This document shows positions 1 through 19,869 of a DNA stretch of 64,000 nucleotides, one piece after another. Source of the stretch: Siphonodentalium dalli. Its lineage: Eukaryota; Mollusca; Scaphopoda; Gadilida; Siphonodentaliidae. The stretch's first letter is position 1. Every line of letters begins with the position of its first letter. The notes beneath the pieces were generated by a model that saw only the letters and a program-made list of their open reading frames with translations, made no database searches and had not been told where the DNA came from. The stretch is taken from contig CP136066.1 in the NCBI GenBank assembly GCA_032622095.1, positions 104,243,319-104,307,318 of the forward strand, written 5' to 3'. The translations under genes and the position numbers were made by a program.

Positions 1-91
1 CGTTTTTCTAAATATTTTTTTTCTCTAAATACGTATTTCAGAAAAAACACATAATCTGCGAAATGTTATATTAACGAAATAACGGAGATGT

Positions 92-512: not shown

Positions 513-2637
513 CTTTAATATAACACATAATCATCAACATCCTCAACATATTTGAGCTAAACGAAAAGCAATTAATCTCAACGACAAGGCCATTTCAGGT
601 TTTCCATTCATGGAAATAACCTCTCCCATAAATAGACAAAATGTCTGCCGGACTATTTCAATCACGTGATTGATCACGTGCATAGATACCACAGGGAAAT
701 TACTTTGTTCACATGAACTAATTATTATGCATTTTGTCACTATTTATAGATATTTATTTATGTATATATTTATCAGCTGAAAGCCTCTGCGTTCTCACAT
801 ATTGCGCATTAAATAATAATGAGTCAATGCCATCGCATTTTAATCATGCATAGCCGTATATTGTAGCATTACGCACATATTTATGGGAGAAGTTATTTCC
901 ATGCGAAAGCAGAAATAGCCCAGCTGTTGAGATTGGAAAAGCAATATTAAAAAGCCCAGCGTTATACCATAGCCATGGCATAGCACGACGTCGATAGCGG
1001 CGGTGGACGTATCCTAGGAGAATGCTGTACAAAATCATCCACGTGTGTCCATCGTCTCACATATTTCGAACTCATGAGAGGATAGCCACCCTGATAGACC
1101 TTGAAGCTGTACACGGAGTAGAATGTACACGAATATCGGCGGCCTGCGGTAGTAATAACCAACACTCACTCCCTTCCAGAAAGCTGCCTTCTGGTGGCAG
1201 AATGCAGGATACTTGACATACACCACTCGAGCTGCCGACAATATAAGTCACGTGATGTTATCAAAGTTTTATTGTGGTTGTCAAGGCAAGACGTAAGCAA
1301 CGTGTTCCGTATGTCACGAGATTATTCCGTTGTTGCTTTTATCGCCTTCAATTCCAGTTACCATTTCCTGGAGAATGAAGTCTATTGCTTTTATGTATAT
1401 GGTGCGCATATTTTCCGAAAAACGATCCTCCAGAGTTTGTTTTACTGATTTCATAAACGGCTCACGTATTTTCTGCAAATATAGAAAAGAAAGACATAGA
1501 TGCAAAAGAAAACAGTAACATAATTGAGCTAAACATCAATCGTATGGCCAAGGCATCGCGGAAATCCACACAATCATACATCGGAAACAATCACAAATCA
1601 ACTGTTTCTTTGGACAAGTATGGTCGCTCTATATAATAGACGCCGATCGTTCAAATTTTGGATAGGCTGACAATAATTCAAAACGTGTTACTGGGATTAT
1701 GGTCCGATCTAATAACTTCCTGCACAGTATATACAACTTCAAGATAATGGTTAGTGTGATGTCAAATTGGACATGGTATCTTTAAGCTTAAATTTATTCT
1801 CGCTCTTATATCCAGGTCGGGTACCGGGGGATCTAGTAGACACACATCAACCCATTCGTGATGGGAGCTGCACTGATTGACCACTTGACCTTCAATTTGG
1901 CGATGGAGTCTCAATTGCATAAGGGTTAATATTATCTAAGGAAACATCGCTGTGCATCGGTACAAAATCGATCGAATATTGGTCGAACTTGACCCTATAT
2001 TTGGACGATTTTTGTAAGGATTATTAAGAAGATTCTCCACCCAGTAGTGCTTACGAAGAATGTGTAGGTCCGAGCAGGAAAGTTGGTGAATGTAACAAGT
2101 CTCATTCCCTGTGATATTGGTTGATACCGTCTGACGTGGTTTGGTCACGGAATCTCTAGATGATACAAGATCATAAATGGAACGGAAGCCGGATAGAATA
2201 AAGCCCATCTCGACAGAGGGTTGACCATATCTCAAAAGAAGCACTTCGATTATCACGCCCATGATAAGCTGAGAAATAAAGTATTAAGATGTCCGCATTC
2301 AGCCGCTTTTGGGTCTTCCTATATCAGAGCGTAACCGTATAGTGCACACGTTGTGCCCGAGGGCCCAACTGTGCTTCGGTGGTCATGTTAAGTATCGTAT
2401 TATCCTGTTATAAGCCGCCCACCGGACGCAAAGCTGAGACACAAGTTCTTAATATGTCTTCATTCATGAGCGTTTGGAGTTCCTTATCTGAAAGTGTACA
2501 ATATAGTGCATCACCCGCTATGTCTCTATGGTGACCGATGTGGTTCTGCGGACATGTTTTACGATGTCACGTACCGTATTAGTCTGATATGATCAATTCA
2601 GCAGGACCATGTTGAAAATACAGGATGCGTGGCGTGA
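513..2637. other. No recognisable gene
   Basis: Only short open frames occur. The longest is a 108-codon minus frame at 1936-2262 that matches no family I recognise and has no convincing splice or start context. No repeat structure was noticed beyond unique AT-rich DNA. Confidence 0.5.
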
Positions 2638-2659
2638 TTGTTATGGTGGCGCGCACGTG

Positions 2660-2757
2660 ATGGATATATAGTGTTTTTGTTCATTGTATATTTTTGTCTT
2701 GTATATCATTTGTTGGCGAAGGCAATAAATCTATTGATTGATTTATTGATTGACTGG
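2660..2757 (+). repeat. Possible retroposon 3' tail, AATAAA plus TTGA repeats
   Basis: An AATAAA at 2724-2729 is followed immediately by imperfect ATTGATTGATTTATTGATTGA repeats to about 2756. Several LINE and SINE groups end in a polyadenylation-like signal and a short tandem repeat of this kind. No coding relic adjoins it directly; the LINE relic at 3.2 kb starts about 450 bp further on. The assignment is weak. Confidence 0.3.
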
Positions 2758-3224
2758 GGTTCAAATCAACTACTCTTTCACATTGTTCAAAACCATTCAG
2801 TCACCAGCTTAAGATTGCAAGGCAACATAATGAGGTTTGTAACCATACTTCCACCACGGTCTCAATCGTCAATCAGATATAAGGAAAAAGGAATATCGTT
2901 TGCAACCCGCCTGGTTCCCATGCAAACTAATCTTTACTAACACATATGATTAATACGGATGATGCTATTTCCGACGCCGTCTCTTTACACATTATTGCTG
3001 GAATTCAGATTAGATATTCTTCGGGCTGTTACGAACATGGAGCAATCACAAAGTAACGAAACCCACACATCAATTAGCTGAGAAAGTGGCCCACAGCATG
3101 GCGAAATACCATCCCATCCACCGCGGCAAATTAAAGGCCCGTTCACCTAATTTCTTATCCTCAAGGTGAACCTAGTAACGCATCGCTTTTGAGAAATTCC
3201 GTCGACCACAACAATACTTCAAGG

Positions 3225-4085
3225 ATTATATATAAAACAATCCATAATCGGGGTTAACGATTAGTTATATAATACAAAAGTCAACACAAATGAACCTGGT
3301 CTCACTTGCCGATGATACAACGGTGTATAATTCGGGCGTCGATGTTAAGAAATTAGAGCGCGACGTCAATTTTAAACTACATAAACTATTCCAGTGCTAT
3401 TATGCGAACCGTCTAATACAAACAAAACACGATATATTGTATTTGACTTATACCGAAAAGTACACCAATTAATGTGTCAATCAACAATATACCAATATAG
3501 CGCGAGTAGGCGAGGACTCTAGCGAAATGACCGATAGATGTTTGGGCATATGGATGCAAATCTCAGTTATAATGCTCATATTTCCAAACTCCATAATAGC
3601 CTATCCAAAATTTGCATTTAATACGGCAAAGAAATTGCTTAGCTCTTAGAACTCTGTGGTACACTCTTGTTCAAAGTCGTTCACAATATGGCATTGAATT
3701 ATGGGGCCACAGCAAACATGTTCATAAACTCTTTCTGCTTCAGCAGACAATTATAATTATCAACAATAAGCGCCATATATAATTTACCCACATTTAGCCA
3801 AAATTAAATTTTAAAAGTTAGATATCTAATTAAATTTTAAAAGTTAGTGATCTGTATGAACTGTATGAACTGTATGAACGCAATTTTACACTTTTATGTT
3901 AGAATGGAGGAACGGTGGTCTCCCAACTTCCTTTATTGCATATTTTAAAATAAATACGGCCAACACCTGCCAAAGCCAAAATGGTCTCTTTAAATTCTCG
4001 AAATCACATATAAGGTTCCTCAATTCATTCCCGACATTTATATTCTCCGCTAATTGTAACCTACAGAAAAAACTTCCATCTTAAC
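3225..4085 (+). pseudogene. LINE reverse-transcriptase relic (C-terminal half)
   Basis: This is a decayed non-LTR retrotransposon reverse transcriptase. The catalytic motif C reads SLADDTTVYNSG in the frame opening at 3290, continuing to 3472 through a helix with the usual KKLERDVN spacing. Conserved downstream blocks then appear in shifted frames: a CLGIWMD-type thumb motif with SYNAH near 3535-3580, a YGIELWGHS block near 3690-3715, and a LKVSDLYELYE...NGG...TSF block at about 3830-3925, followed by a degenerate C terminus to 4085. A VND block just upstream of motif C is in yet another frame and is followed by a stop. Stops and frameshifts separate every block, so it is a dead copy. The style is Jockey/CR1/L2-like; the clade cannot be fixed by eye. 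A triple ATGAACTGT duplication near 3855-3880 lies inside the coding relic. Confidence 0.75.
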
Positions 4086-5036
4086 TGATATTAACACGTT
4101 TAAACGGGGATCTATCAGTAAATGCGTCGGTTCCTACCTCACAGATGTTACTTGTAATAACCCATACTGCTCAGAATCAGTACGTTCATGATGTACTCTT
4201 AATTCTCAACTTCATGATTATAGTATTCGTTTTGAATTTGATGTTGACGTTTTGCCATCTAGCATATATGTGAGACGCTCCTTCGTATGCATCTTACACA
4301 TGCAGTCGAGCTGACAAACTACATTGTTCTAACTGGATCTCATCTCACTTGTTTCGCGGGTTATCCTGAAAACGAGGAAACCGTAATAATTTATGTATGT
4401 ATAAGAAGTCCGGGAGACCTGCAAATGCCACACTCCCTCGGATCCGATATAGATGCATATATAAATGTTTTGACATTTGATGTACACTAACACAAACATC
4501 TCATCTTTGTCAGTACTGGAGATGATCCAAAATATATGATGGGGTGGGCAGGAAGACAGTCAATAACGGCAGGCAAAGTGCACCCATTTGAGAGTCAGCG
4601 TGGTGTAGTTTTCTATATCTCGCCGACCCTCAACTGGGAATATAATTGATCTTGGATCTTATACACTGTAAAAATCCATTTTAGTTACAATCGTGCGTGT
4701 ATTCCTGTATTCGTGTACATGTATAATGGATGCACTTTTGCAAATAATCATCATCATCTTTCTCCCAAGGTACTCGCAGTGGGTTAGTGTGAAACATATA
4801 AGTCTGTAAAGACATTCAACACTAAGAAAAACATGGAGAACTAGATTTTTTTAAAATTTATTATTGCTCGTTCTCCAATAACAAATTTCGCGCCTTGAAA
4901 CAATTTTTTATGTAACATAACTATCATAGTGATCTGTCAACAAAAATCGCTAATCGTGTAGTGAGTTTCAACTATTTTCAACTATTTTAGTGTGAATATG
5001 ATTTTCAGAATATTTTTCAAATGCTTTGACCTTTTT
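4086..5036. other. No recognisable gene
   Basis: The stretch is AT-rich. Short open frames such as 4287-4490 (+) show no family resemblance, and no repeat was recognised. Confidence 0.5.
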
Positions 5037-5116
5037 GAATTCCGACTAAATCCTGAAAAGTTACCCATAATTCTGCTCTGGTCAAGGAGTCTATTTCTTA
5101 GGGCATTGCTGTATTT
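5037..5116 (+). repeat. TA-flanked foldback element (CAGTAATGCCC family), 3' half
   Basis: The block TTCCGACTAAATCCTGAAAA, then GTTACCCATAATTCTGCT, ending in GGGCATTGCTGTA, matches the right half of the complete element at 23417-23604. The left inverted repeat is absent, so this copy is truncated. Confidence 0.7.
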
Positions 5117-6060
5117 CAAACACTCAATAACTAGCAATTAGAATACCAGGCATGCTTGCATCGCTCTGAAGCTTGCGCTGTGTTCCGTTCGCTTGTATTG
5201 CAATAACACATTAACAGAGAACTGATTAGCACCGCATATCAAAAGGATATAAATGAGTTTTCTCGTATTATGTCAAATATAAAAAAGCCACCAAACCGAT
5301 TTCATCTTGATAAAGAGTGCATAACGTAGTGACTGGTAGCCCATCAAAGCTATTTGCCATTTCAGCGTGAACTGAAAATCCTCGAACGCCTCATTTCAGG
5401 ATACACTTAGCTAATTATGTGAAGGGCGATAAATCAGTCACACCCTGACGTTAACTGGACACGTTATCAATTGTGACTCACAGCATATGTGCGGAACTTG
5501 TCTACAGTCACGTAGCACCTGTCACATCATTCTACAAGTTCACTTGGTCGTCCCTCGAAGCTGAGGCATTCACCACATAGAAACCACATCAATCCTTGGG
5601 AACGGACTTTTTCCGCGGTACAAATAAAACTTAAGTATAGAGGATAGTTTCAGTCGCCATGCTATTTCATGACGTCCGCCTCAGACAGCCGCACGTAGAT
5701 CATGCGATGATATAAGCCACATGTAGATACACAAACGTCTGGGATGCAACTTACAAACACAATGAGATACTCGAATCAACGTACATTTAACATCTTATCG
5801 TGGATTACAAACCCCTGTTTATCGGAAATCAAACCAGTTTTGCCATGGACTACACGTGGGCAGATGTACGCCATCAAAGTGCGCTAAATTATTATCGAGT
5901 GTGCAGCAATGTTATCGAAATGATAGGTGTATAATGAAATTGACAATTTTATTGTTCATCTGAACCGTCAAAGTATATGAACATAATTTGGAAGAGGCAT
6001 ACATGTGTAATATAACACTTACATGACTGGAGTATCCTGAAATTTTGCGAAAACCCTGTG
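5117..6060. other. No recognisable gene
   Basis: Only short open frames were found, with no motifs. Nothing repetitive was noticed. Confidence 0.45.
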
Positions 6061-6135
6061 CCAATGCATTCTCTTATACATGTATATGCGATTCGCCTAT
6101 AGGGCGTCTGGCATACATATAAGAGAATGCACTGG
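6061..6135. repeat. Palindromic hairpin 1
   Basis: The arms CCAATGCATTCTCTTATAC and its near reverse complement TATAAGAGAATGCACTGG flank a centre that is itself palindromic (CGCCTATAGGGCG). A related hairpin follows 30 bp downstream. The minus open frame across it is forced by the symmetry. Confidence 0.8.
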
Positions 6136-6163
6136 CCTAACAATATTTACCTTGCCCTTTTAA

Positions 6164-6236
6164 GCCATGCATTTTCTTATATATGTGAAGCTCCCTATGG
6201 GAGACTCGCACATCATGCATAAGAGCATACACTGGC
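6164..6236. repeat. Palindromic hairpin 2
   Basis: The arms GCCATGCATTTTCTTATATA and a diverged complement ending GCATACACTGGC flank a central CTCCCTATGGGAG palindrome. The layout is that of hairpin 1 with a changed central stem, so the two are diverged tandem copies of one foldback unit. Confidence 0.75.
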
Positions 6237-6248
6237 ATATGTTTTAAT

Positions 6249-6296
6249 GCTGCACCAGCGCATCTCCATTCATCAAAGGGATAAATACACATGTGC
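6249..6296 (+). repeat. Short shared block AATGCTGCACCAGC
   Basis: AATGCTGCACCAGC, a degenerate CTCC...AAAGGG stem and a GGATAAATA block follow the two hairpins. The same order, AATGCTGCACCAGC...CTCCCGTTATGAAAGGG, recurs at about 16207-16250, just after the 384-bp satellite, so the block is a mobile or dispersed piece. Confidence 0.5.
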
Positions 6297-6299
6297 ATT

Positions 6300-7180
6300 A
6301 TTTATGTAAAAAATCGTCAGTTTCGAGCTGTTTTTAGTCTTTCGCCCAGAAATGAAGTGAACACTCCGTATATTTACCATATAAGAAATAGGCTAATAGA
6401 AACAGTTATCCATAGAAAATGAGGAAGCCTACACAACATGCGTGTCTCCAGATATAAAGACAACGGAAAACACTCCGGCCAAATTATGTAAGGCATGCAC
6501 AGTCGACTGGATTCGTGGGCTACTGTCAGATACGTTGCATTAAGTGTGTATAGTTGTATTACGTCTGACACAGACAAAAACTGTGACAGTCGTGATGTTT
6601 TGCATTCCATTTGATCTTAGAATCTTCCTAGTGGGCGCAGCATAGGCCATGGGTGTCAGACCGAGCGATGACGCACATAGTGTCAAATTTCGGCAAACCA
6701 TCTATTCAACGAATTGGCCTATAATAACACAATGCAACGAATGTATAGGACACAACTATCAATTTAAGTATTTGGGTGATTTATATATAAGGATGCAAAT
6801 ATAATTCGCCGTGATTTACAGAATTTGTAGTAACCTGTCCAAATTCCATACAAGGGACTGTTTTTGCAATGGTATAAATAACGACACACACCTTCTCGAA
6901 CGAAAAGGTTTATCTTCATTTATATCCACTTGCACTTTAGCATTTATACATGTTTTCTGCTAAAACATGTCACACAATACAACAGTCACATAGGTACGAA
7001 GAGTTGTGAAGTCATGCAAATCAGCGGCCTCAAATCATTTGAATGTCGGGTTCTGAGAAACTAACATTTCTACGAGGACGAAGAACAAATAGTCATCTAT
7101 GCGCCAGCTCAAACACTCTTTGCTTAATTTTATGTATGAGTATCATAAACATCATAACATAGCTTGAATTGTTAACTTAC
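6300..7180. other. Intergenic or intronic, no recognisable gene
   Basis: Open frames such as 6374-6610 (minus) show no motif. This stretch lies directly downstream of the globin exon's donor site on the minus strand, so at least its right end should be globin intron. I looked for the third globin exon here and did not find it. Confidence 0.5.
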
Positions 7181-7409
7181 TTGAAAGAAACACTTGTTGA
7201 AACCAGAAAACGCCCGATGTGAAGCTCCAGTTTTATGTATCAGGTTCACCACGTAGGCGTAATCATCAAAATGCATTATGGCATCGTCCAGTGTAGTCAT
7301 GACAAACATGGCGTGTCCTTCTAACATTTCATTTTCTCGCAGGTCCGCTTCTGAGACGTTTTTGGAAAACGTAAATAGATTCAACAAATCATCGTTGGTC
7401 CTGAACAAT
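7181..7409 (-). CDS. Globin gene, central (haem-pocket) exon, neuroglobin-like
   Basis: The exon encodes 76 codons of a haem-binding globin, covering helices B-end to G. The minus-strand acceptor is TTCTATTTCAG just above 7409 and the donor is CAA|GTAAGT at 7181/7180. Exon length is 229 nt, one base plus 76 codons, so the introns fall at B12.2 and G7.0, the two ancestral globin intron positions. Visible landmarks are the CD-corner Phe in LLNLFTF (residue 12), the distal E7 His in EGHAMFVM (residue 32) and the proximal F8 His in TGASHRAF (residue 64). The E7-F8 spacing of 32 is the same as in neuroglobin, and the ADLRENEML block also fits neuroglobin or globin X types. Globins of this class bind oxygen or NO and are usually intracellular. 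The first and third exons were not found in the window; the first would lie at higher coordinates, beyond or across the Gypsy insertion. The frame is open with clean splice sites, so the gene may well be functional. Confidence 0.88.
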
Positions 7410-7888
7410 CTGAAATAGAATCGTACAATGACTGAATGCACACGTATGGTATATGGCTAAACGTTTATGATTATATATATGCAAACATATATATTCGAGA
7501 TTTCTTCGTTGAATACTTCGCGCCCAAATTATGTGAACTGAAATCTGGTCTTGTTCTATATTCCGTCAGTTCGATGTTTTCAGGAAATGGGTGGATGTAG
7601 TCTGGCTGTGTTTGAACAAGTATGCAGCGCGGTGGTGGTTGGACACACTATAGTCACATTAAATAAATCACCTGCATTCATTTCGCATATTTACAAAACT
7701 ACGCTAATTAATTCAATAAAATCAACCGAACTAATTATTATTTCTAGTTACGAAATCTGTCCTCATTAATTGAACCAAGTTTATATTTTGATCCAGTGAG
7801 ACCAGTTCGTGTTATCGTATGTTTCATTGGGGTAACTGGATAACGTTTCTGGTGAATGAGCTCTCTTAGGTTAGGTTGTAGGATAATC
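7410..7888. other. Presumed globin intron 1 sequence
   Basis: This lies upstream of the globin exon on the minus strand. It contains no recognisable exon. The plus open frame at 7551-7769 shows no motif. Confidence 0.4.
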
Positions 7889-7910
7889 CAACATATCCTG
7901 GCGCAAATAC
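7889..7910 (+). repeat. 22-bp stump of the 7-bp-TSD foldback family
   Basis: CAACATATCCTGGCGCAAAT matches the left terminus (CAACATATCCTCGCGCAAAT) of the foldback elements at 55868 and 56966. The remainder of that element is missing and Gypsy pol begins directly at its edge, marking a recombinant or deletion junction. Confidence 0.65.
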
Positions 7911-9027
7911 ATTTGAGCGAATGATGGAGATGGTGTTGGCTGGGTTGCAGTGGCACACCTGTGTCCTCTATATAGATGACGTATTGGTATTTTCAAAGAA
8001 TTTTGAAGAGCATTGTTCAAGGTTGGATGAGGTGTTGGAAAGGATTAGTGATGCAGGTCTTAAAGTGTCGCCCAAGAAATGCCACCTTTTCCAAGACAAA
8101 TGCCATTTTCTTGGGCACATAGTGTCGGAGAAAGGAGTAGAGCCGGACCAAGCAAAGGTGAAGGATGTACGGAGTTTCTTAGGGACGTGTTCCTATTATA
8201 GGAAGTTCATAAAGAACTTCGCCAAAATCGCCAAGCCACTTCACAAGTTGACGGAGAAGAAAAACCCATTTGTGTGGTCCGACGAATGCCAAGATGCATT
8301 CATGAAATTGAAAGAAGCATTAATGAAAGATCCTGTCCTGAAATATCCGGATTTTCAGAAGTCCTTTATCCTGGACACGGATGCGAGTCATAATAGTTTG
8401 GGGGCCGTGTTGACGCAGAAATTTTATGATGGGGAGCATGCCATAGCCTACTTTAGTAGAACGCTATCAAAACCAGAACGCAATTACTGCATCACACGGA
8501 AGGAATTGCTGGCAGTAGTTGAATCAGTTAAACACTTCCATACATACCTGTTCAACACCAAGTTCCTTGTGAGAAGTGATCACGGAGCACTGACCTGGCT
8601 CCATCGATTTAAGAACCAAGCAGGCCAACTTCCTCGATGGATAAACTTATTGGAAATGTATGACTTTAAGATCGAGCATAGACCAGGAAGGCTTCATAAT
8701 AATGCAGATGGGCTATCGAGGAGACCGTGTGAAGAATGTGACCACTGCGATAGACAACAGGCTAAGGTAGATTTAGAGAAAGAACCTCCATGTGATCTGT
8801 CAGATGTAGCAGCAATGACTGTGGCTGAAGTTAAGACGATGGAACCGAGTACAACTGAGACGAATGATGAACCAGTGAGCTTACAATGGATTATCCCGAG
8901 AAGTAAAACAGAAATCCGAGAAGCCCAACGAAAGGACAAGGATATCAGCAGCATCATCATCAAATTTTTAGAGGAATCCCAGGAAAAGCCTCGATGGAGC
9001 ACCTATCTGAGTACTCCAGTAAAGTGA
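7909..9027 (+). pseudogene. pol: Gypsy pol fragment: reverse transcriptase C-part and RNase H
   Basis: The frame enters inside reverse transcriptase just before YIDDVLVFSKNF, the catalytic YIDD box, and runs through FLGHIV, SFLGTCSYYRKFI and IAKPLHKLT into RNase H. RNase H shows DTDASHNSLGAVL, a RKELLAVVE glutamate and a SDHGALTWL aspartate, and the HNNADGLSRR linker block follows. The usual stretch of about a dozen residues between the post-FLGH loop and VRSFLG (normally carrying a WP.P motif) is missing, which looks like an in-frame deletion. An acidic linker follows. The frame stops at 9025-9027, and the integrase continues in another frame overlapping from 8994. In related elements pol is one frame, so a frameshift close to 9000-9025 is inferred. 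The first ATG at 7921 is not a true start, because the homology extends upstream of it. Confidence 0.93.
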
Positions 9028-10268
9028 AAACGTATTGGGCTCAGTGGGACAGATTACATATGAAAGAGGAACTCCTTTACAGGAAGTGGATAAACCCAGA
9101 TACTGATTTGGAGGTTTGGCAGTTGGTGCTACCTGGGTGCTGGCAAAAGGAAGCCCTCAAGATGCTTCATAGCAGCCCTGGCGGCGGTCATATGGGAGTG
9201 AATTGGCTAATAGACCAAGTGAGAGCTCGGTTCTATTGGACCGGGTACTATACATCAGCCTACATCTTCGTGCAACAATGTCCAGAATGTCAGAAACAGA
9301 GACCTTCACCTAAGAAGACAGGGCTCATGCAACAATACTTGGTGGGAGCTCCACTGGAAAGAGTAGGAATAGATATAACTGGGCCATTGCCAAAGTCACA
9401 TGATGGGAACCGATATATCTTGGTTGTGGTCGACTACTTCATCCGTTGGGTGGAAGCTTTCCCTATGCCAAACCAAGAGGCTGAAACAGTTGTAGGTGTC
9501 TTGGCAAGAGAGTATATAACACAATGGGGAGTCCCACTTCAGATTCATACGGACCAAGGTCGACAGTTCGAGAGTAAACTGTTTCAGTCTCTGTGTGAAA
9601 CTTTTAGTATAGATAAGACCAGGACGACTGCCTTTCATCCACAGAGTGACGGTTTAGCAGAGAGAATGATGAGATCGATAAAGGAGATGCTGCGTAAACA
9701 CATCGAAAGGTCACAGAAAAACTGGGATGATTGGCTGCCTATGATGATGTGGGCATACCGATCAACTGTTCACGACAGCACAGGTTTCTCACCGAGTCTA
9801 ATGATGCTTGGTCGCGAAATGAACCTTCCTATTGATTGCATGTACTCTTACCTTGAGCGTGAACGAGAAAGCGGAGAGTCTGAGAAAATAGCGAGATATG
9901 TTGGGGACCTGTTGGAAAAGTTTCTGAAAGTACATGAGGTAGCGAGGGCGAGAACGAAAGCCGCAAGTAATAGGCAGAAGAGAAATTACGATGTTAAAGT
10001 GCGAAAGACAGAGGAAATGAATGTGGGGGATGCAGTGCTGCTGCGAGTCACAAGTGTGGGTAAATGCTTGTCCAGGAAGCTAGTTCCAAAATTTGAGGGC
10101 CCTTATATCGTGACCGACAGATTGTCAACTGTTTTAGTTCGTATAAAGAGAGGTCCAAAGAAATTATCCAAAGTGGTTCACATAGACCGTCTCAAGCCCT
10201 ACTCTGGCAAAGTCAAGAGATGGTTCGTACCTGCGGGCGTGACCACGAGAAGTAAGGATCGAGATTAA
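8994..10268 (+). pseudogene. pol: Gypsy integrase portion of pol
   Basis: The 424-codon frame holds a complete retroviral-type integrase, which inserts the DNA copy into the host genome. The zinc-binding HHCC module is seen as LHSSPGGGH followed by CPECQ. The catalytic core shows the first Asp in RVGIDITGPLP, the second in IHTDQGRQFES and the Glu in HPQSDGLAERMMR. The C terminus has the GPY/F module (KFEGPYIV) and a HIDRLKPY block. The reading is open throughout. Its start is artificial: the KTYWAQWD block normally continues from the RNase H linker, and the ATG at 8994 overlaps the end of the upstream frame by 34 nt. This portion is pol continued after a frameshift. Confidence 0.93.
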
Positions 10269-10343
10269 AGATAAAAATATGTAAACCTCCGAGAATGGTA
10301 GACTATGTCCATTACTTAGTGTCCTCTATTTCTGTCACTTCAG

Positions 10344-11534
10344 ATGGCGGATCGAAACTTCAAAGACGGCAGATTTCACTGCCATGATTGTTTCAAAGTC
10401 TTTGACACCAAGACACGACGAAATCGACATGAACGGGAGGTACATGAGGAGAAGAAATACAATTGTGATTCATGCAGGTATGAGGCTGGACGACGGGAGC
10501 ATCTAGATCTCCATATAAAAAGGAGACATTCATCAGGAGAGTCAGTTCCCACAGTGAAATCAAAAGTGGTCAAGGTCATGAGAGGATGTGATAATGTTCA
10601 AAAAGCAAAAGTCAAGGATACAGTCAGGTGTGATATATTCGATCTGCCGGCGGCTGACTGGCTGTCAGTGGAACCAGTTCTCGAGTTACCCCCCGGTGAC
10701 ATATTCGAGGAGGCCTCACCCATTGTTCGTTATGGAGATCATGATATTCTAGCAGAAATAGTGGCGGAAGTGATGCCTGAGTTAGTGGTTTGTGGTTCGG
10801 AAGTTCAGGCTGATGAGTCAGAGGTGAAGGAGTCTCTAGTGGATACAGAGATGCAGACGGACGGGGTAGAGGTGAAGGATTCAGAGATGCAGACAGATGC
10901 TATGGTAACGAAGGAATCGTCCACGAACACGGTGGAAGAGTATGTGCCAGGTTATAAAGTCGATCGGCTGAGATCGCTGGACATCGCTGGCATGCTTAAA
11001 TTGCCACATCCTATCACCCACCTGCGACAGCTATCTGCTGACCCACGGTTTTTTCTGATGGGTGCACCTTCGGAATACATTGAGAGTCACCGAGGTGAAA
11101 TTTTCAGAGCAGGTTTGAGAGAGGCGAGGGAGCACCTGCAATATTATCGACGAAGATTCGTCCCAGACGGTTTCGAAGGTCTCACTCGGATTGAGAGGTT
11201 GACGCTGCCTAATGGAAAAATATATGAGCTTATCGATCACTGGAGGCGTGCACCTCAGCTCAAGGAAGGACAACATCGAGGAATCCAGACGGAGGATAGA
11301 ACCACGAGGGTTCTTGATAAGGGGACGGAGACAGAGATGGTTACCAAGATGGATCAGGAGACGCAGACAAAGAACCAGGTTCAGAGTACGGAGGCCAGTA
11401 CTCATACAGAAGAGAAGATGATACAGACAGTAGACGCCAGTACGTCCACCGAGGAATCTGAAGAGGTCATCAAGGACATGGACGATGGTCCCTTGGACTT
11501 ATGCTTGCCCAATCGGAGGAGAGCAGAAGAATAG
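10344..11534 (+). CDS. Gypsy ORF3: C2H2 zinc-finger protein with QT-motif ladder
   Basis: An intact 396-codon frame starts 75 nt after the integrase stop and ends 130 nt before the polypurine tract, so it sits where envelope genes lie in some relatives, but nothing in it looks like an envelope (no signal peptide or membrane span). Residues 13-34 and 41-62 form two C2H2 zinc fingers (C13, C16, H29, H34; C41, C44, H57, H62). An acidic region follows. At residues 171, 183, 315, 341 and 361 there are QT dipeptides in contexts EMQTD, EMQTD, RGIQTE, ETQTK and MIQTV, resembling the dynein light chain LC8 recognition motif, with further T-x-T variants (STNT, STHTEE, STSTEE). Residues 200-305 look globular, with a basic YYRRRF stretch. 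The C terminus has GPLDLCLP (382-389), resembling the PxDLS motif bound by the corepressor CtBP. Fingers plus an LC8-type ladder is the plan of ASCIZ/ATMIN. The function is inferred, not shown; there is no stop or frameshift despite decay in pol. Confidence 0.85.
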   Translation: MADRNFKDGRFHCHDCFKVFDTKTRRNRHEREVHEEKKYNCDSCRYEAGRREHLDLHIKRRHSSGESVPTVKSKVVKVMRGCDNVQKAKVKDTVRCDIFDLPAADWLSVEPVLELPPGDIFEEASPIVRYGDHDILAEIVAEVMPELVVCGSEVQADESEVKESLVDTEMQTDGVEVKDSEMQTDAMVTKESSTNTVEEYVPGYKVDRLRSLDIAGMLKLPHPITHLRQLSADPRFFLMGAPSEYIESHRGEIFRAGLREAREHLQYYRRRFVPDGFEGLTRIERLTLPNGKIYELIDHWRRAPQLKEGQHRGIQTEDRTTRVLDKGTETEMVTKMDQETQTKNQVQSTEASTHTEEKMIQTVDASTSTEESEEVIKDMDDGPLDLCLPNRRRAEE

Positions 11535-11656
11535 TAGAAGATTATATTGTTGATAACTTACCTTGCAAATTTTTGTTATATAGTTTCATAAGGTTGAATT
11601 TACTATGGTAGTTGTTGGATTAAGGTTAACGGATCCGGTGATCCGATGTTTTCTTT

Positions 11657-11666
11657 AGGAGGGGGG
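11657..11666 (+). promoter_or_regulatory. Polypurine tract (plus-strand primer)
   Basis: AGGAGGGGGG directly precedes the LTR start (TGATGTAGC). In LTR retrotransposons this RNase H-resistant purine run primes second-strand synthesis, and its 3' edge defines the LTR start. Confidence 0.85.
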
Positions 11667-12142
11667 TGATGTAGCATAGCTACAGGCACTCTCTTTGGTT
11701 ATTATGCATTAAGTATTATTGTATTTCTCATGTTTTAACATTGATTCGTTCCATACTTTTCTTTATATCATTCATCGGTACATTCGCGGCTTTCCGTACA
11801 TTTGTAAAAGTTCGTCCACTTCATTCGCGTCAAAACATACATTAGTCCGTAAATATCATAAATTAAATCACTTCTATGTTTGTATCATCTCATAACCCAT
11901 CCGTGCTATGTATAAATTTCATTTCATGTAATTAATAGCACGATATCGCGATATTTATTCATTGTTTTCATCACTTCATTCACCTCATTTGTTTACATGT
12001 CAGCGAGCACTGTTGCGCGATTCGTAGCCCCGCCCATCTCTGGCAACAGCGCTCGTCAAAATACCTTGTAGTTAGCAGTTGTAGGTAAGGTATGATTTGT
12101 GGGTAGCACTGCACGTTCACTTGTGGGTATTTTGTAGGTAGT

Positions 12143-12177
12143 TGTGGGTAGTAGTATTTAAGCCACTACTACCCACA
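12143..12177 (+). promoter_or_regulatory. LTR promoter: TATA box in a perfect 13-bp inverted repeat
   Basis: TGTGGGTAGTAGT (12143-12155) and ACTACTACCCACA (12165-12177) are exact reverse complements around ATTTAAGCC. GTGGGTA also occurs upstream near 12101 and 12123, so the same word is repeated in U3 and probably marks factor-binding sites. Confidence 0.65.
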
Positions 12178-12294
12178 TTTGGGGATCAGTCAACCGGAAG
12201 TAATCTTTGAATAGACGTTGGTGACCGTGATACGGAATTACAATCTAAGGAGCTAGACTAGAGTAGAAAGGTGATGAATTACAGAGATTAATTA

Positions 12295-12300
12295 AATAAA
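12295..12300 (+). terminator. LTR polyadenylation signal AATAAA
   Basis: AATAAA lies about 140 nt downstream of the TATA-like box and about 50 nt before the LTR end, the expected place for the R-region polyadenylation signal. Confidence 0.65.
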
Positions 12301-12352
12301 CAAGCCAAGACTCAAGTGAACGCCCAGTCTATCCAGAGGCATACCTCCAACA

Positions 12353-12623
12353 GATGCAATAACTACAATACTTATACCAATGGCCTATGAATATGATACT
12401 ACAATTCGACATGTTATTGTTATCCAATAAATTGGAGCATTTCATTTGCATATCTAGTCACGTTGATTGATCACGCCCCGACAAGAACTCAAGACAAGTC
12501 CGGATCTAGTACCCAAGAATGGTCAATTAAGGCGCTCTATTAAATTTGTAACAGGTTGGGAACGTCATAAATCCGCTCGACCTATATCAATTATCAGTCT
12601 TAAATATCATTTAAGACCCCCTA
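12353..12623. other. Flank between LTR and AAGAAA arm, no gene
   Basis: Unique-looking AT-rich DNA with no recognised coding block on either strand. Confidence 0.4.
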
Positions 12624-12935
12624 CACTGCCAAAAATAATTTCTTAATAAGATAAAATATCTTGAAACAAGAAAAACTATTTCCTGAAACAGGAAAATAAA
12701 TCTTATTTTGAGAAATATACCCCCAAAGTCTGCTACATCAAGAAAATTTAAGAAACTCCCACCAGACAAAAGATAGTTTTCTCAAAAAAGATAGATTTTA
12801 GTCTTGAAACAAGAAAAAATTTCCTTACTAAGAAAATGGCTTCAAAAATTAAATATATATTTCTTGTTTCAAGATTTTTTTTCTAAGTTAAGAAATACTT
12901 AAAGAAAATATTTCTAAACCAAGAATTAATTGTTA
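12622..12935 (+). repeat. AAGAAA-rich inverted arm, left (TACACTGCCAAAAATA end)
   Basis: Starts TACACTGCCAAAAATAATTT and continues for about 310 bp of irregular AAGAAA/TTTCTT alternation (AAACAAGAAAA, TTTCTTGTTTC). The right arm at 25300-25856 ends with the reverse complement TATTTTTGGCAGTGTA. Terminal TA on both sides would fit a TA target site with CACTGCC termini. Confidence 0.7.
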
Positions 12936-12989
12936 TGTACAAATTACTGCTGTAATAGAATAACTGTAAAAGCCCAACGATAGCAAAAT

Positions 12990-13285
12990 TGTGATCAAAA
13001 TTTTATGGTAAACATTGAAAAAGGTCCAACCTGTTGATTAAATATTCTGAAATTCATATTCATACTTAAATATTTGAACTACATGTAATACTACAGCTAT
13101 AGGATTATATAATTGTTGACAAGTCACTCACTGTAACAGTTTTGTTTACATAACATTGGAAAAGGTCCAACCTGTTGATTAAATATTCTGAAAATGTTAT
13201 TCATAGTTAAATATTTGAACTAATAATACAGCTAGAATTATATATTTGTTGACAAATTACTGTAACAGTTTTGTTTACATAACAA
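12990..13285 (+). repeat. Two tandem copies of a ~141-bp unit
   Basis: AAGGTCCAACCTGTTGATTA occurs at 13021 and 13162, each followed by AAATATTCTGA, a TTAAATATTTGAACTA block, ACAGCTA and then TGTAACAGTTTTGTTTACAT. The second copy is a little shorter. It is non-coding. Confidence 0.8.
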
Positions 13286-13589
13286 TAGTTTCAACAGCTG
13301 TAATTTTGTTATTGGCAATCTGTCAGTAAGTGTTTTTATCTATTTCTCAATGCGCTTAGGGCATGCTGACCTTTATACAATTTTAATAAAATTTTGTTTG
13401 CACAATATAGTGGGTCGCCATTGAGGAGGCCTCCCTTGAAATCTCCAGTTGGTGGTTTGCCACACCATCCCGAAGTAGACAAACCTCTATGGTGGCCCCT
13501 TGCATTGAACCTATTAATTAAACCGGTACTTCAAGCTGGTATATACCTCTCTTATATAAGGATGGAAGATGCTACCAATTTCAAACCGA

Positions 13590-16190
13590 TGGTATTTCTT
13601 CAGAGTTGACTCTCTTGTATTATGAAAGCAAGCCCAATGAGGCCATGCACCTATTGTATGTTTATAACACACAAAAGACTATATCTTAGCAAAATGGATG
13701 TCTCTGATGATACAAACAATAAAATATCCAATTTATCCATAGTTGAATTTCATTTGGCTATATAGGAAAGCATACAATGTGGCTTTTATTTAGTTTCCAC
13801 AAAGTATTTTAAGTAAAATATCCATCAAGTGATGTATTCTGCCTTGTCCTATATATTAAAATGCATGCAATGGCCATGAGAAATGCTTAATTTATTGGTA
13901 GAGATGTCAATCAGATAAGAAATACTGACATTTTAGGTTTGATACACCATTTCAGCTGGCTTGGCATCTTTTAAATTTGAAACCTAAGGGAATTTATTCA
14001 GCTTTGACTCTCTAAATTATGGAAGAAAGCCCTAATGAAGCCACTATTTGCATGTTAGTAACATGTATAAGGCTATATCTCAACAGAATACATGTCTCTG
14101 ATAAAATGCACAATAAAATATCAATAGTTCAATTGCATTTGGCTATAGAGGGATGCATACAATATTGGTTTTATGTAGTTTCCACAGACTATTTTAAGTA
14201 AAATATCCATCAATTGATGTTTTCTACATAGCCTTGTATATTAAAATGCATGTAATGACCATGGGAAATGTTTAATTCATTAGTTGATATGTCCATCTGA
14301 TAAGAAATACTGACAATTGAGGTTTAAAATACCATTTCATGGGATTATGGGATCATAAATATCAAACTAAGGGAATTTCTTCAGATTTGACTCTCTAAAT
14401 AATGGAAGAAAGCCCAAATGAAACCACTATTTGCATGTTAATGACATGTATAAGGCTATATCTCAACAGAATACATGTCGCTGATAAAATACACCATAAC
14501 ATATCCATAGTTTAATTGCATTTGGCTATAGAGGGATGCATACAATATTGCTTTTAAGTAGTTTCCACAGACTATTTTAAGTAAGATATCCATCAAATAA
14601 TGTTTTCTACCTTGCCCTATATAGCATAATGCACGCAGTGACCATGAGAAATGTTTAATTTATTGGTAGAGATGTCCATCTGATAAGAAATACTGCCATT
14701 TGAGGTTTGATACACCATTTCAGCTGGCTTGGCATCTTACAAATTTGAAATAAGGGAATTTATTCAGCTTTGACCCTCTAAATTATGGGGAAAAATCCTA
14801 AATTATGCCATTATTGGCATGTTTATAACATATATAAGGCTATATCTGAACAGAATACATGTCTCTGATGAAATCAACAATAAAATATCCATAGTTTAAT
14901 TTGTTTTGGCTATACAGGGATGCATACAACATGGCTTTTAGGTTGTTTCCACAGACTATTATAAGTAAAATATCCATCAAATGATGTTTTCTGCCTTGTC
15001 CTGTATATTAAAATGCATGCAATGACCATGAAAAATGTTTAATTTATTGGTAGAGATGTCCATCTGATAAGAAATACTGCCATTTGAGGTTTGATACACC
15101 ATTTCAGCTGGCTTGGCATCTTACAAATTTGAAATAAGGGAATTTATTCAGCTTTGACCCTCTAAATTATGGGGAAAAAGCCTAAATTATGCCATTATTG
15201 GCATGTTTATAACATATATAATGCTATATCTGAACAGAATACATGTCTCAGGTGAAATAAACAATACAACATCCATAGTTTAATTTGATTTGGCTATACA
15301 GGGATGCATACAACATGGCTTTTAGGTTGTTTCCACAGACTATTTTAAGTAAAATATCCATCAAATGATGTTTTCGGCCTTGTCCTGTATATTAAAATGC
15401 ATGCAATGACCATGAAAAATGTTTAATTTATTGGTAGAGATGTCCATCTGATAAGAAATACTGCCATTTGAGGTTTGATACACCATTTCAGCTGGCTTGG
15501 CATCTTACAAATTTGAAATAAGGGAATTTATTCAGCTTTGACCCTCTAAATTATGGGAAAAAAGCCTAAATTATGCCATTATTGGCATGTTTATAACATA
15601 TATAAGGATCTGAACAGAATACATGTCTCAGGTGAAATAAACAATACAACATCCATAGTTTAATTTGATTTGGCTATACAGGGATGCATAAAATATTGCT
15701 TTTATGTAGTTTCCACTGATTATTTTAAGTAAAATATCCATCAAATGATGTTTTCTACATTGCCTTGTATATTAAAATGCATGTACTGACCATGGGAAAT
15801 GTTTAATTTATTAGTTGATATGTCCATCTGATAGGAAATACTGACATTTGAGGTTTTAAATACCATTTCATGGGATTATGGGATCATAAATATCAAACTA
15901 AGGGAATTTCTTCAGATTTGACTCTCTAAATGATGGAAGAAAGGCCAAATGAAGCCACTATTTGCATGTTTATAACATGTATAAGGCCATATCTTTGCAG
16001 AATGCTTTTCTCTGATAATAAAACAAATAACATATCTATATTTCATAGTTTAGTTGGCTAAACAGGGTGCATAACATGTGGTTTTAAAGTAGTTTCACAG
16101 ACTATTTTAACTAGAATATCAATTAAATGATGTAATCTAACTTGTCCTGTGTTTTAAAATGCATACACTGACCATGATAAATGTTTAATA
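13590..16190 (+). repeat. 384-bp satellite, about seven tandem copies
   Basis: The anchor TCCATC(A) recurs at 13821, 14206, 14589, 14973, 15357, 15737 and, mutated, at 16119, giving spacings of 385, 383, 384, 384, 380 and 382. Each unit carries the same order of blocks: TGACTCTCTAAATTATGG, TATAAGGCTATATCT, GAATACATGTCTCTGATGAA, TTTCCACAGACTATT, AAAATGCATGCAATGACCAT, TTGGTAGAGATGTCCATCTG, ATTTCAGCTGGCTTGGCATC. The central copies are nearly identical while both edges are diverged, as expected for an array growing by unequal exchange. There is no conserved open frame. Confidence 0.93.
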
Positions 16191-16206
16191 CAAACAGCGT
16201 CCTTAA

Positions 16207-16250
16207 TGCTGCACCAGCCTAACTCCCGTTATGAAAGGGTTAAATTAATA
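16207..16250 (+). repeat. AATGCTGCACCAGC block, second copy
   Basis: Matches 6249-6296 at AATGCTGCACCAGC and has a CTCCCGTTATGAAAGGG stem. It begins where the satellite ends. Confidence 0.45.
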
Positions 16251-16318
16251 AACAAAGGTTACACAGACATCCCCCCTTCAACAGCGCGGTGAGTGTGTTT
16301 TTTATGTAATATATGTCA

Positions 16319-16690
16319 TATCCGGTATAAGAGCCCCCCCCCCATTTCGTACGCTGTATTCCATGCCCTGTTATGAGGTACGCCATATTCCGGCCCCTCT
16401 GTTAGGAGGTATTCGGTATTCCAAAAATACCGGTATTCGTATACCAACCTTCCAATAAAACGATCATAAGAATAATACAAATGCGATGTTTGTCACAATA
16501 AATGCACGGTTTGACATACAGATCGTCGATCATCAATTTATATCAATTTAGACATGGACATGATGACCGGCGTTCGTACGGCAATAGAGAATTTATCCAT
16601 ATGGCTGTTAACTGGTATTTCGTATTCCACCCTCTGTGTTAAGTGGTATTATTCCGTATTCCAAGGGGTGGGGTGCTCTTATATGGTGTA
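16319..16690. repeat. Foldback element with GTATAAGAGCCCC ends
   Basis: The left end CCGGTATAAGAGCCCCCCCC and the right end GGGGTGGGGTGCTCTTATAT are inverted copies. The interior repeats GGTATTCGGTATTCC-type words in both orientations. About 370 bp, non-coding, probably a non-autonomous inverted-repeat transposon. Confidence 0.65.
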
Positions 16691-17413
16691 CAGTTTACAA
16701 CTAATGTGGCAGTCATGAAATTTTTAATTATTAGAACTGTTTGTGATATATACACCCCAATAACCCTGTCTTCACGCTCCTGTTGGTGATGGCCTTATCA
16801 ATCTATTGCTTCGTTGAACTTTTATTATTGCAAATTTGAGGTAAAAGTTCTTGAAGCGTGTAATTTCGTTCCACTTTACAACAGCGCACAATGATTCCTA
16901 TTTTTTTAACCTACCGGCGCAGATCGAGGCTGGACGTACATCTTACGTTTTCATAGGATACAAATTGATCGGATTTTAGGTAAGTGAAACTAATTAGTCA
17001 TCAATTGAAGTGATTTCTCATTATGAACAGACTGTTACTAGTAAAATACTTAATCGAACTACAATTAAAAATGCACGACTTATCCTGTTTTATTCAAATG
17101 AAATTTGATAGTAAATCGGCCTAATTTTGTTTCCGTTAAATATTTCAGAAAATGGAATCCGTCATTGATAAATGAACATTTTTTTGGTCAAAATAGTAAC
17201 TTCTGACGGACTATGATTATATGGCATTTATGAATCATATATAAAGGTAGCCCTACACAATATTCCCAACTGTGTTCCCAACTGCAAAAACGATTTTTAA
17301 TGAATTATAAATTGGCCTAAATTTGATGCTTCATAAAAGGAAAAACTGTCCGGGAATGGCTATTTTCGTCTGCAAAATCAAATTCTGCCATAAATGCAGT
17401 GTATTATCGGTCG
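16691..17413. other. No recognisable gene
   Basis: AT-rich, with no motif-bearing frame and no repeat recognised. Confidence 0.4.
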
Positions 17414-17783
17414 ACATTAAAGTGATGTGAAACACTCAGGTTGTGTGACCAAACATATATTGAGAATAATCTTGCTCAAGTAGTTATTTTTATGAATATT
17501 AATCCAAATTTACAACACACACTGTCATTCTTATATATTAATTAAATGCAGTGACTCTCGATTGCGAAATCGTTTTCATTAGTTTATCGCAGATAGATGC
17601 GTCCCGATTGGAGTAGTAAATATTTACATTTGAGCGTAGTTCAGACGATGTTTTCTATGGAATGGTATGGTCGATTTGCTTCAGATTTTCGGCGATGTTA
17701 GTAGAATGGTACATTCCTCCAGTTGGCATAGCGCCTGGATAGTAACTGATCAGTTTCACACACCCAAACAAGTACATAATATG
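17414..17783 (+). repeat. Dispersed repeat R1, copy 2 (most complete)
   Basis: About 370 bp, from CATTAAAGTGATGTGAAACA to AAGTACATAATATG. It is the sense counterpart of 22600-22962 and contains the whole of the copy at 240-512. Confidence 0.75.
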
Positions 17784-17981
17784 ACAATAGTTGGAATATT
17801 AAAAGGTCCCAGTTATTGAAAATATACATGTAGCGTATAAGGAAATTGTCAGTTATGATCAGTTATACCGGTACTTCATACCATTATTCTAACAAATGTC
17901 AACCTGATAGAATTCCCACAATCTCTTTAATATTGTCATGCCATGGCCAATTTAACACTAAGTGAACGTTCAGATTACCAC

Positions 17982-18297
17982 GATACAATCGTAAGTGGAA
18001 ATATTTCTGTCGTAGGAAGTAACCGCTCAACTGTGCATGCTCACCTCAAAATCGTAGGTAAAAAATAATATCATGCACTGTTTTATTTAAAAGCGAAATT
18101 GTGGCGTATCCTTGGTTATCCCCATTTGCGACGTAATCACTAATCAGTCATGTGTATGTAAAAATTGTGGCCTGAAGGATCGCATGATAGTCAATCACAT
18201 GCTTTACAAAAAAACTGTGATTTCATCATGTACGACATCGTAATCATGTGAACAAACTATCCACGTCGATCCCGGTTCCTCCACTTAAGATTGTATC
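17982..18297. repeat. Foldback element GATACAATCGTAAGTGG, unit 1
   Basis: The termini GATACAATCGTAAGTGG and CCACTTAAGATTGTATC are inverted repeats matching at 16 of 17 positions. The interior holds GCATGCTCAC, a TGTGGCGTATCCTTGGTTA block and AACAAACTATCCA. It is a 316-bp MITE-like unit with no coding. Confidence 0.8.
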
Positions 18298-18345
18298 TTT
18301 CATCTGTACGTTCACTGAGTGAACATTCATGATTCATATGACTAC

Positions 18346-18643
18346 GATTCAATTGTAAGTGGACAGATTCCCTTCTTGGGTAATAACCGATAGTTGGACT
18401 GCGCATGCTCACGACATGATCACGAGTTATATCAATGCAGAATTGCAAAATTGTGACGTATCCTTGGTTACCTCCACTTGGTGAAATTTGCGTGTACGTA
18501 AAAATCGTACAAAGTAAATGGAAATATCATAGGATAGTTAATCACGTGGTTAACCACCGATATTAAATATACTCATCTGCGATGACATCGTAACAAACTA
18601 TCCATGATTTTGTCAGGCCCGATTCCTCCACTTACGATTGAAT
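18346..18643. repeat. Foldback element GATACAATCGTAAGTGG, unit 2
   Basis: A second copy in the same orientation, 48 bp after unit 1, with termini GATTCAATTGTAAGTGG and CCACTTACGATTGAATT. It shares the GCATGCTCAC, TGTGACGTATCCTTGGTTA and AACAAACTATCCA blocks in the same order. Confidence 0.8.
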
Positions 18644-19059
18644 TATGGTCTTCTGACATCTGAATCGCCGAAAATGCTAATATTGTTGGAAGAATGAACT
18701 TTACACTTGTTTTTTGAATATGTTTGCAAATTATGAAAATACATGCATCCATATCACATATATATGTACATGTATTTTTTCTTCAATTACAGAAATACCA
18801 GATTCATTAGCCATGGTGGATGCGGCATCATGCCCTCTCATCTTCAACATATGAAGATTGATTTCGCCCATGATTAGTCTTAAGCGTCGGTCCTGTCTAG
18901 CTAGACACGTGGCAATGAACAAATGACAGGTGAAATATCACTGGAAGTCTGTTCGCCAAAATACCAGTGGTGAGTTTATATCTATAGCTACCATGCAGAT
19001 GAATATTTGTACATTGTCACCAATACATGTATATACCGCTATCCTCAAAATTATGGACC
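18644..19059. other. No recognisable gene
   Basis: Contains TACATGTA-type palindromes but no coding motif. Confidence 0.4.
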
Positions 19060-19215
19060 TTAAAAATGGGGGGGGGGGCCGGAAAAAAACTGCAGACACA
19101 GGGTGGAAAAAACTGTTTTCTTCGGTTTGGGTACCCCCCCCCCCCCCCCCCCCCCACAGAAAAAACTGCAGTTTTTTTCCACTGACCATTTGCCCCCCCC
19201 CCCAGAAAAATCAAA
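19060..19215. repeat. Poly-G/poly-C composite with GGAAAAAACTG modules
   Basis: A G run near 19069 and C runs near 19133-19155 and 19193-19203 alternate with near-palindromic AAAAAACTGCAGTTTTTTTCC blocks. Similar C-run plus CGGAAAAAAACTG modules occur at 19870-19935, 45480-45570 and 47255-47340. The open frames across it (poly-Pro, poly-Gly) are artefacts. Confidence 0.7.
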
Positions 19216-19869
19216 TCTACCCCAGCCGGACAACAACTCGGTTTGACCGGAAACCGAAACAAACACCTGAGCATACAATTCACGAGAAGGTGCTTGGTAA
19301 CTTAGTTTAGATTATTATGACTAAAATGGTCATTGTCTACCAGTAGAACGCAGATTTGTACCTCGTGATGTCATGACATGTACAAACATGTATATTGGTG
19401 ATCGCAACGCTATGTATGCACTTTAAAAAATGACAACTAGTCATTACCTCGACTTTGAAAAATCTGATGCAAATGAGATGAGTGAGATACCAGCATATAA
19501 CTGTTTTCTGATACCATTGGAGGAGAAATTGTTTAATACATGGGATAGTTCTGCAGTAAAAATTTGCCATATAAGCGATCGCAGGGTAGAATTCTGCAAT
19601 CGACTGGTAGACACTGACATAGTTGGCATTATTAAGAGGGTTAATGGGGTCAATATCACATGTAAACCAAGACAGTGGTTATCCAAAATTGTTTTATGTG
19701 GATTGTACTACTCATGTATATATGATTTGGATATTAAGGTTAATCCATATTCTATAAAATGAGAGAAAATTGAAGTTGTGAGTCTGAAAATACATATTTG
19801 GAATTTGTTTTACATGCAACCCCCCCTAAATGAATAAGGACAAAATTTACGTGTAAATTTTTTACGCCC
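19216..19869. other. No recognisable gene
   Basis: A plus open frame at 19430-19762 (110 codons) has ordinary composition but no family resemblance and no splice context I would trust. Confidence 0.4.

Follow-up and report, generated by a model that had tools for sequence, protein, structure and literature searches.

Between the integrase and the 3' LTR of the retrotransposon copy described here lies a real gene of a kind bound to one clade of Ty3/Gypsy elements. This gene, ORF3 (10344..11534, on the + strand like all of the element's features given below), was found in a window of 64,000 nucleotides of Siphonodentalium dalli DNA, the whole stretch that was analyzed. As the preliminary description had it, ORF3 is intact over 396 codons, with no internal stop; its standing as a gene is supported by the open frame, by matches in the host genome and by its dN/dS. 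Its motifs and the splice acceptor ahead of it recur across diverged families, and its product is, with good confidence, an accessory regulator of a transcription-factor-like kind. The explanation that we favor on balance is that of a spliced, clade-specific accessory gene encoding a zinc-finger adaptor that would recruit the host proteins CtBP and LC8, and its rivals are in part compatible with it.

The assignment to Ty3/Gypsy follows from the order of reverse transcriptase (RT), RNase H and integrase together with a polypurine tract and a 3' LTR, all of them present in a copy truncated at its 5' end. What is left begins with the 3' part of RT and RNase H (7908..9027; Pfam RVT_1 tail, RT_RNaseH_2 and RT_RNaseH; ORF 7921-9027), the first RT residues being read in the sequence at about 7908, where the copy breaks off inside RT and upstream of which nothing is recognizably element. 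The integrase ORF (8994..10268; Pfam rve, H2C2 and p58_C) stands in a different frame from that of RT/RNase H and overlaps it by 34 bases at 8994-9027. This split may reflect either damage or a programmed frameshift site. Among near copies, two have integrase frames open over 1,019 and 1,282 aa, and three tandem copies have one of only 434 aa. Behind ORF3, sequence reading places the polypurine tract (AGGAGGGGGG, 11657..11666) and the 3' LTR (TGTAG...CTACA, 11670..12625, with an alternative start at 11667); similarity to the near copies L012 and L013 stops at 12631. No second LTR copy was found in window positions 1-20000. Given the 5' truncation inside RT and the lack of a second LTR, the window copy is dead as an element, though its ORF3 is open.

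A search of the host genome (2.23 Gb in 9 contigs) with ORF3 yielded at least 104 matches (E<=1e-3); 105 of 2,339 candidates were scored, so that much-diverged ORF3s may be missed. Of the near copies, seven (L011-L017, counting that of the window) are intact, with lengths of 392-396 aa; others are damaged, L018 by one stop and L019 and L020 by a frame break. The diverged families L025, L030, L043, L041, L021 and L038 have open frames at 23-35% identity to the window's protein, and together with it they make up the alignment (A2) of seven family representatives. Partial ORFs (L023, L024, L028, L033, L037 and L039) stand outside the count of seven and were used only in scans of motif position, namely those for the anchor at W+15/16 and, in some cases, for the EY pattern, both taken up below. 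Two curiosities of copy structure may be recorded here. In L040 (793-2877, ORF-oriented), a 695-aa frame contains internal repeats of finger, motif and domain parts, which looks like a partial duplication of ORF3 in one family. On host-genome contig C6, L015, L014 and L016 (at 61714657, 61723707 and 61732757) stand in tandem with an exact spacing of 9,050 bp; they differ by one or two codons and form a head-to-tail element array, probably sharing LTRs.

That ORF3 is clade-bound, gained once or lost outside, follows from its distribution. Of 43 elements with an integrase identity of at least 44%, 34 have an ORF3 within 4.5 kb downstream of the integrase and on its strand; of 55 elements below 43%, none has. 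By identity class, ORF3 is present in 9/9 at 90-100%, 19/25 at 53-69%, 6/9 at 44-52% and 0/55 at 34-42%, and the counts are unchanged with a limit of 8 kb. The count pairs all 104 ORF3 matches with 98 of 100 integrase matches, two second fragments being left out; the integrase search of the genome had scored 99 of 5,005 candidates. For the other nine integrases of the clade, no match to ORF3 lies in the vicinity. Behind the integrase of L083, a single element taken from six with the same score (39% identity), 1.9 kb hold no finger ORF. An integrase tree with 24 rows unites the 11 that come from the host genome (97/93) and places them as sister to bivalve elements, Sinanodonta and Mytilus among them, with a bootstrap that is not fully settled; four of these 11 rows (L062, L072, L075 and L079) are without an ORF3 match nearby, and host elements of the 39% type are outside the tree.

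Of the 21 pairs within the window family, 18 have a dS above 0, and for 17 of these, including every pair with dS >0.02, dN/dS is 0.18-0.34; the damaged copies L018, L019 and L020 were excluded. The exception is L011-L012, the closest informative pair (dS 0.011), at 0.90; the remaining three pairs show no synonymous change. When pN/pS is pooled over nine chosen pairs, the central domain (residues 201-312) stands at 0.09, the N-terminal QT cluster (156-200) at 0.13, the fingers at 0.29, residues 65-155 at 0.45 and the C-terminal QT tail at 0.69, the last 16 residues being without synonymous change. Purifying selection thus acts on the window family, and it is weakest in the C-terminal tail, where three of the five QT sites lie. 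Ratios in other families are higher (0.29-1.59 in the L025 family, 0.49 for L043-L044, 1.04 for L030-L031, undefined for L041-L042).

Two C2H2 zinc fingers had been read at the N-terminus, and they are there (residues 13-34 and 41-62; 10380..10529), identified by PDB and profile matches. They score below the Pfam gathering cut-offs; residues 11-62 match solved C2H2 pairs (E 2.9e-5), and a profile of the seven ORF3 families matches the fingers of CTCF (E 1.6e-8). C13, C16, F20, H29 and H34 of finger 1 and Y46 and H57 of finger 2 are invariant across the seven families, with finger 2 degenerate in L041. Directly before the ATG stands a 3' splice acceptor, a polypyrimidine tract plus CAG (10322..10343), which ranks seventh among the window's 3,150 AGs by a generic acceptor score. 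An AG adjoins the ATG in the same way in five of seven families (window, L025, L030, L041 and L043); L021 and L040 have a strong acceptor without an adjoining ATG, and in L038 no acceptor is evident. We infer that the ORF3 mRNA would be produced by splicing onto this predicted acceptor.

Common to the seven families are finger 1 and an orphan central domain of ~90 residues (about 216-304, including DPRFFxxGAPSxY; 10989..11255), which is delimited by conserved columns and low pN/pS. Twenty-one columns from P221 to W300 are invariant in 7/7, as are Y200 and P202 just before the domain. Further upstream, a PAxxW-type motif (residues 101-107; 10644..10664) keeps P102 and W106 in all seven. The central domain has no PDB match, and no Pfam family beyond the fingers is common to the members; a protein search with residues 196-318 gave 0 of 159 candidates at E<=10, and one with the whole of ORF3 gave 0 of 4,918 at E<=0.01. 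Viral contigs searched with ORF3, with the integrase alignment (A1) and with A2 held no relative, so that neither these nor the protein searches placed an ORF3 relative outside the host genome. Single-sequence structure prediction reached a mean pLDDT of 35 for ORF3 and 39 for the central domain. The domain is thus a conserved module for which the Pfam, PDB and protein-database searches found no relative.

The five QT sites reported earlier (Q171, Q183, Q315, Q341 and Q361) are all in place and exceed expectation: in a protein with 14 Q and 27 T, whole-protein shuffles average 0.96 QT and reach five in 37 of 20,000 trials, and shuffles of the two tails only average 1.38 and reach five in 75 of 20,000. 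The T-x-T variants noted with them hold up less well. Six are present, one being the TQT at Q341, and whole-protein shuffles reach six in 101 of 20,000 trials, but tail-only shuffles do so in 2,416 of 20,000; there is thus no excess over the tails, and T-x-T alone is weak evidence. Among 120 integrase-bearing proteins used as a real-protein control, the mean is 1.14 QT, with two proteins having five, and LC8-scored sites above 8 bits average 0.2 with a maximum of 2, as against 3 in the window ORF3, a comparison that flatters ORF3 in that the controls are enzymes and not disordered tails. The C-terminal tail of ORF3 is predicted to be unfolded by charge-hydropathy.

Number of sites is one matter and their likeness to known LC8 ligands another. 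Sites were scored with a matrix derived from peptides given in two published sources (22 binders and 27 non-binders, weak, viral, duplicate and anchorless peptides being left out; leave-one-out AUC 0.81; PMC6607443, PMC5963919). With the non-binder correction, binders have a median of 13.7 and a 10th percentile of 8.2, and non-binders a median of 10.1 and a 90th percentile of 13.4. The best window site, QHRGIQTE (Q315; 11271..11294), scores 11.2, between the non-binder and binder medians and below the latter, and MDQETQTK (Q341; 11349..11372) is borderline at 8.3, at the 10th percentile of binders. LDKGTETE, which has no Q, reaches 7.5. The N-terminal cluster (residues 166-202; 10839..10949), in which EMQTD (Q171), EMQTD (Q183) and STNT (N195) follow one another 12 aa apart and are succeeded by EEYVP, is weak by this measure (KDSEMQTD 6.0, VDTEMQTD 2.4). 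Weak too is EEKMIQTV (Q361; 11409..11432), which falls outside the 15 best by uncorrected score and has a valine at +2, where hydrophobic residues are described as disfavored (PMC6607443). The reading of the QT sites as LC8 targets thus survives in part: at best two of the five would be LC8 anchors, one possible to likely and the other borderline. For ASCIZ, too, single sites are reported to bind LC8 no more tightly than 7-20 uM and to become stronger when several act together (PMC5963919).

Elsewhere in the gene family there are stronger candidates, CDKEVQTK in L030 (16.3) and QTEETQTT in L041 (20.6). Sites above 8 bits number 3 in the window ORF3 (reached by 0 of 1,000 shuffles), 3 in L025 (9), 3 in L030 (0) and 2 in L043 (13); L041 has two, not significant (99 of 1,000 shuffles reach two), and L021 and L038 have none. 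The number of QT sites is above shuffles in the window (5 of 5,000), L025 (46) and L030 (36) and at chance in L043 (1,388), L041 (2,508) and L021 (3,519, with a single QT); L038 is without QT. The QHRGIQTE site stands at W300+15, and a Q[T/V] anchor at W+15/16 behind the central domain is common to five of seven families (V in L021); control offsets of 5-14 and 17-25 behind the last Trp have Q[T/V] in 3/7 at most. On the other side of the domain, the window, L025 and L030 agree in a spacing of exactly 17 residues from the Q of a QT[D/E] site to the Tyr of EEY[V/T]P, between which stand STNT, STNT and GMAT, respectively; looser forms of this spacing occur in L021 and L043 and none in L041, and L038 has no match to the EY pattern. 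All five QT sites are retained in 7/7 intact near copies, which is not significant as an argument for LC8 conservation, as 0 hits in 12 variable sites has a chance probability of P 0.31. The preliminary description had named a lack of both fingers and QT sites in related ORF3s as something that would refute its reading; instead, the fingers recur in the diverged families, and the fixed anchor does so in five of seven.

The preliminary description overlooked a motif at the end of the C-terminal tail, as it did the central domain and the splice acceptor. Here, 14 residues from the C-terminus, begins a CtBP-dock-like PLDLC (residues 383-387; 11490..11504). PLDL[S/T/C] occurs within the last 20 residues in five of seven families, the fifth residue being S or T in four of the five (PLDLT in L025 and L041, PLDLS in L030 and L043) and C in the window; L025 and L043 have a second, internal PLDL copy. 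L021 has ALDLT instead, L038 has no such motif, and in near copy L013 the P of PLDLC is replaced by S. Shuffles with PLDL[STC] anywhere number 13-41 of 20,000 across families (13 for the window ORF). Six of the seven proteins end in EE, and basic residues follow PLDL[S/T] in several families. CtBP was discovered via the C-terminus of E1A, and PLDLS is described as its binding motif in cellular factors (PMC9907507). For EVI1 it is reported that PLDLS binds CtBP and PFDLT does not (PMC11095456), so the letters of the dock and its flanks matter; the PLDLC form was not found in a limited literature search. Docking of CtBP by the PLDL tail is probable.

How does ORF3 compare with known systems? The adenovirus E1A protein and cellular PLDLS factors such as EVI1 share with it a PLDL[S/T] near the C-terminus. 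ZEB, FOG and Ikaros are likewise cellular PLDLS factors, and the cellular ones carry fingers. ORF3 differs from all of these in being retrotransposon-borne and in having a central domain of its own, and the window copy ends its dock in C rather than S or T. The other comparison, with ASCIZ/ATMIN (ZNF822), had been put forward as a family resemblance. The likeness is architectural only: N-terminal C2H2 fingers and a disordered C-terminal part with several QT sites (PMC5963919). ORF3 has two fingers as against four, ASCIZ being described with four predicted fingers in Drosophila and with 7 (fly) to 11 (human) LC8 sites (PMC5963919) as opposed to ORF3's two possible ones; ORF3 has, besides, its conserved central domain and its PLDL tail, is encoded by a retrotransposon and in one family (L038) has no QT. 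Kinship is not borne out by the Pfam and PDB searches, which gave no match beyond generic fingers, nor by the protein search, which gave none.

Neither the use of LC8 by retroelements nor extra ORF3s are new in themselves. An interaction of Sirevirus Gag with LC8-family proteins of plants has been reported (PMC2829016), as has one between LC8 and the Gag of foamy virus, in which a coiled-coil region is involved (PMC3705263). These are retroelement products that use LC8, as ORF3 may do, but the partner in those cases is Gag, and ORF3 is a finger protein of its own, encoded behind integrase. LTR retrotransposons of bdelloids and of plants are also described as having an extra ORF between pol and the 3' LTR (that for the nuclear protein of Grande is one), often with a spliced mRNA and in some cases with a nuclear product (PMC5408684, PMC7264820). 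The bdelloid products described are, in contrast to ORF3, esterases, exonucleases, coiled-coil or membrane proteins, and the term 'zinc finger' is absent from the main text of both sources. Among the open-access papers listed in the literature searches, none showed a retrotransposon protein that combines fingers with a PLDL tail and QT anchors. The function of the extra ORF3s of LTR retrotransposons is often unclear, and here a clade keeps one with recognizable hooks for two host hubs.

In the mechanism that we favor, splicing onto the acceptor at the ATG would yield an ORF3 mRNA and from it a transcription-factor-like adaptor, predicted to be soluble because it has no membrane segment. Its two fingers would contact nucleic acid, its PLDL[S/T/C] tail would dock the host co-repressor CtBP, and one to three LC8-type QT anchors around the central domain could engage LC8, whose dimer would pair two chains and so raise avidity; LC8 binding at one or more sites is an even bet. 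The most likely site of action would be the nucleus, at the element's own LTR and chromatin or at host chromatin and genes, and we infer this target as well as the sign of the effect. If CtBP and LC8 do bind, ORF3 opens a direct way to study how LTR retrotransposons of animals deal with the transcription or silencing machinery of their hosts, and it would be a case of a retroelement converging with adaptors of the E1A and ASCIZ types.

Should recruitment of LC8 instead be the main job, for dynein transport of particles or for dimerization of ORF3, the CtBP dock would be incidental. Dynein transport of particles has been proposed for the Gag proteins of Sireviruses and foamy viruses, and the reported interactions of these proteins with LC8 (PMC2829016, PMC3705263), together with the excess of QT sites over shuffles and the fixed Q[T/V] anchor in 5/7 families, speak for such a role. 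Yet no more than two of the five sites reach or approach the scores of binders, four of seven families have no more QT than chance would give, the three-site tail is weakly constrained and the PLDL dock is found in as many families as the fixed anchor (5/7 each), and we consider it unlikely that LC8 is the protein's chief business. A nucleic-acid chaperone or packaging factor, with fingers that bind element RNA and tails that only solubilize, appears rather improbable. C2H2 fingers can bind RNA, and the fingers are the most widely shared recognizable part of ORF3, but such a role leaves the C-terminal PLDL[S/T/C] and the fixed Q[T/V] anchor unexplained. Least credible by far is the reading of ORF3 as the counterpart of errantiviral env, an envelope-like third gene. 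The place behind integrase fits, as does the splice acceptor at the start of the gene, which env genes also have. We reject this reading because no segment of the protein is hydrophobic (19-residue means peak at 1.29 in the window ORF and at 0.43-1.29 over the seven families) and because it has fingers and charged, probably unfolded tails instead.

A special form of the favored explanation is that ORF3 counters silencing by soaking up or re-routing LC8 or CtBP, so that piRNA-guided transcriptional silencing fails on the element. That a QT cluster, finger targeting and a PLDL dock are joined in one element protein agrees with it, but LC8 is an abundant protein and would be hard to titrate. In the fly, LC8/Ctp is reported to bind two TQT motifs of Panoramix and to dimerize it, and transposon silencing needs LC8 (PMC7861614), a precedent that is weakened by the implication in the same source that Panoramix has not been identified outside insects. 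All told, we think counter-silencing of this kind quite unlikely. Going beyond the favored adaptor, one may picture a two-handed chromatin adaptor evolved by this LTR clade, with fingers for DNA, an E1A-like PLDLS tail for CtBP and LC8-type anchors that would dimerize the protein and compete for a silencing hub, by which the element would steer or block its own silencing. This is a speculative and rather doubtful proposal.

Finger ORFs near integrase were met with outside the host genome as well. L001 and L002, in a like position and, for L002, with a like acceptor, were not counted as members: their finger ORFs have no QT and no PLDL, and their BLASTP E values are 2.2 and 0.045. L001 (2310-3182 and 3262-5376) is on a planctomycete MAG contig, probably through eukaryote contamination, and has a related integrase; a TATA-box-like sequence stands ahead of the two-finger ORF, which is followed by a 704-aa ORF without a Pfam match and then by a Gag-like ORF. 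L002 (5462-6382) is on a Bathymodiolus symbiont contig, probably through host contamination, and has its two-finger ORF behind integrase with no ATG before the fingers and with a good splice acceptor just ahead (rank 7 of 511). In the window itself, a globin exon (7172-7441, - strand; Pfam PF00042, E 1.9e-11) lies on the opposite strand to the element, some 470 bp away from where the latter is cut off at its 5' end, and a satellite-like array (13734-16189; 384-bp unit, 6.4 copies) begins about 1.1 kb past the LTR. Farther along are a 122-123-bp tandem repeat family (42521-42817, 44831-45150 and 51022-51596), whose short frames stay open, and a 505-aa ORF with a reverse transcriptase domain (60073-61590, + strand; Pfam RVT_1, E 2.6e-21).
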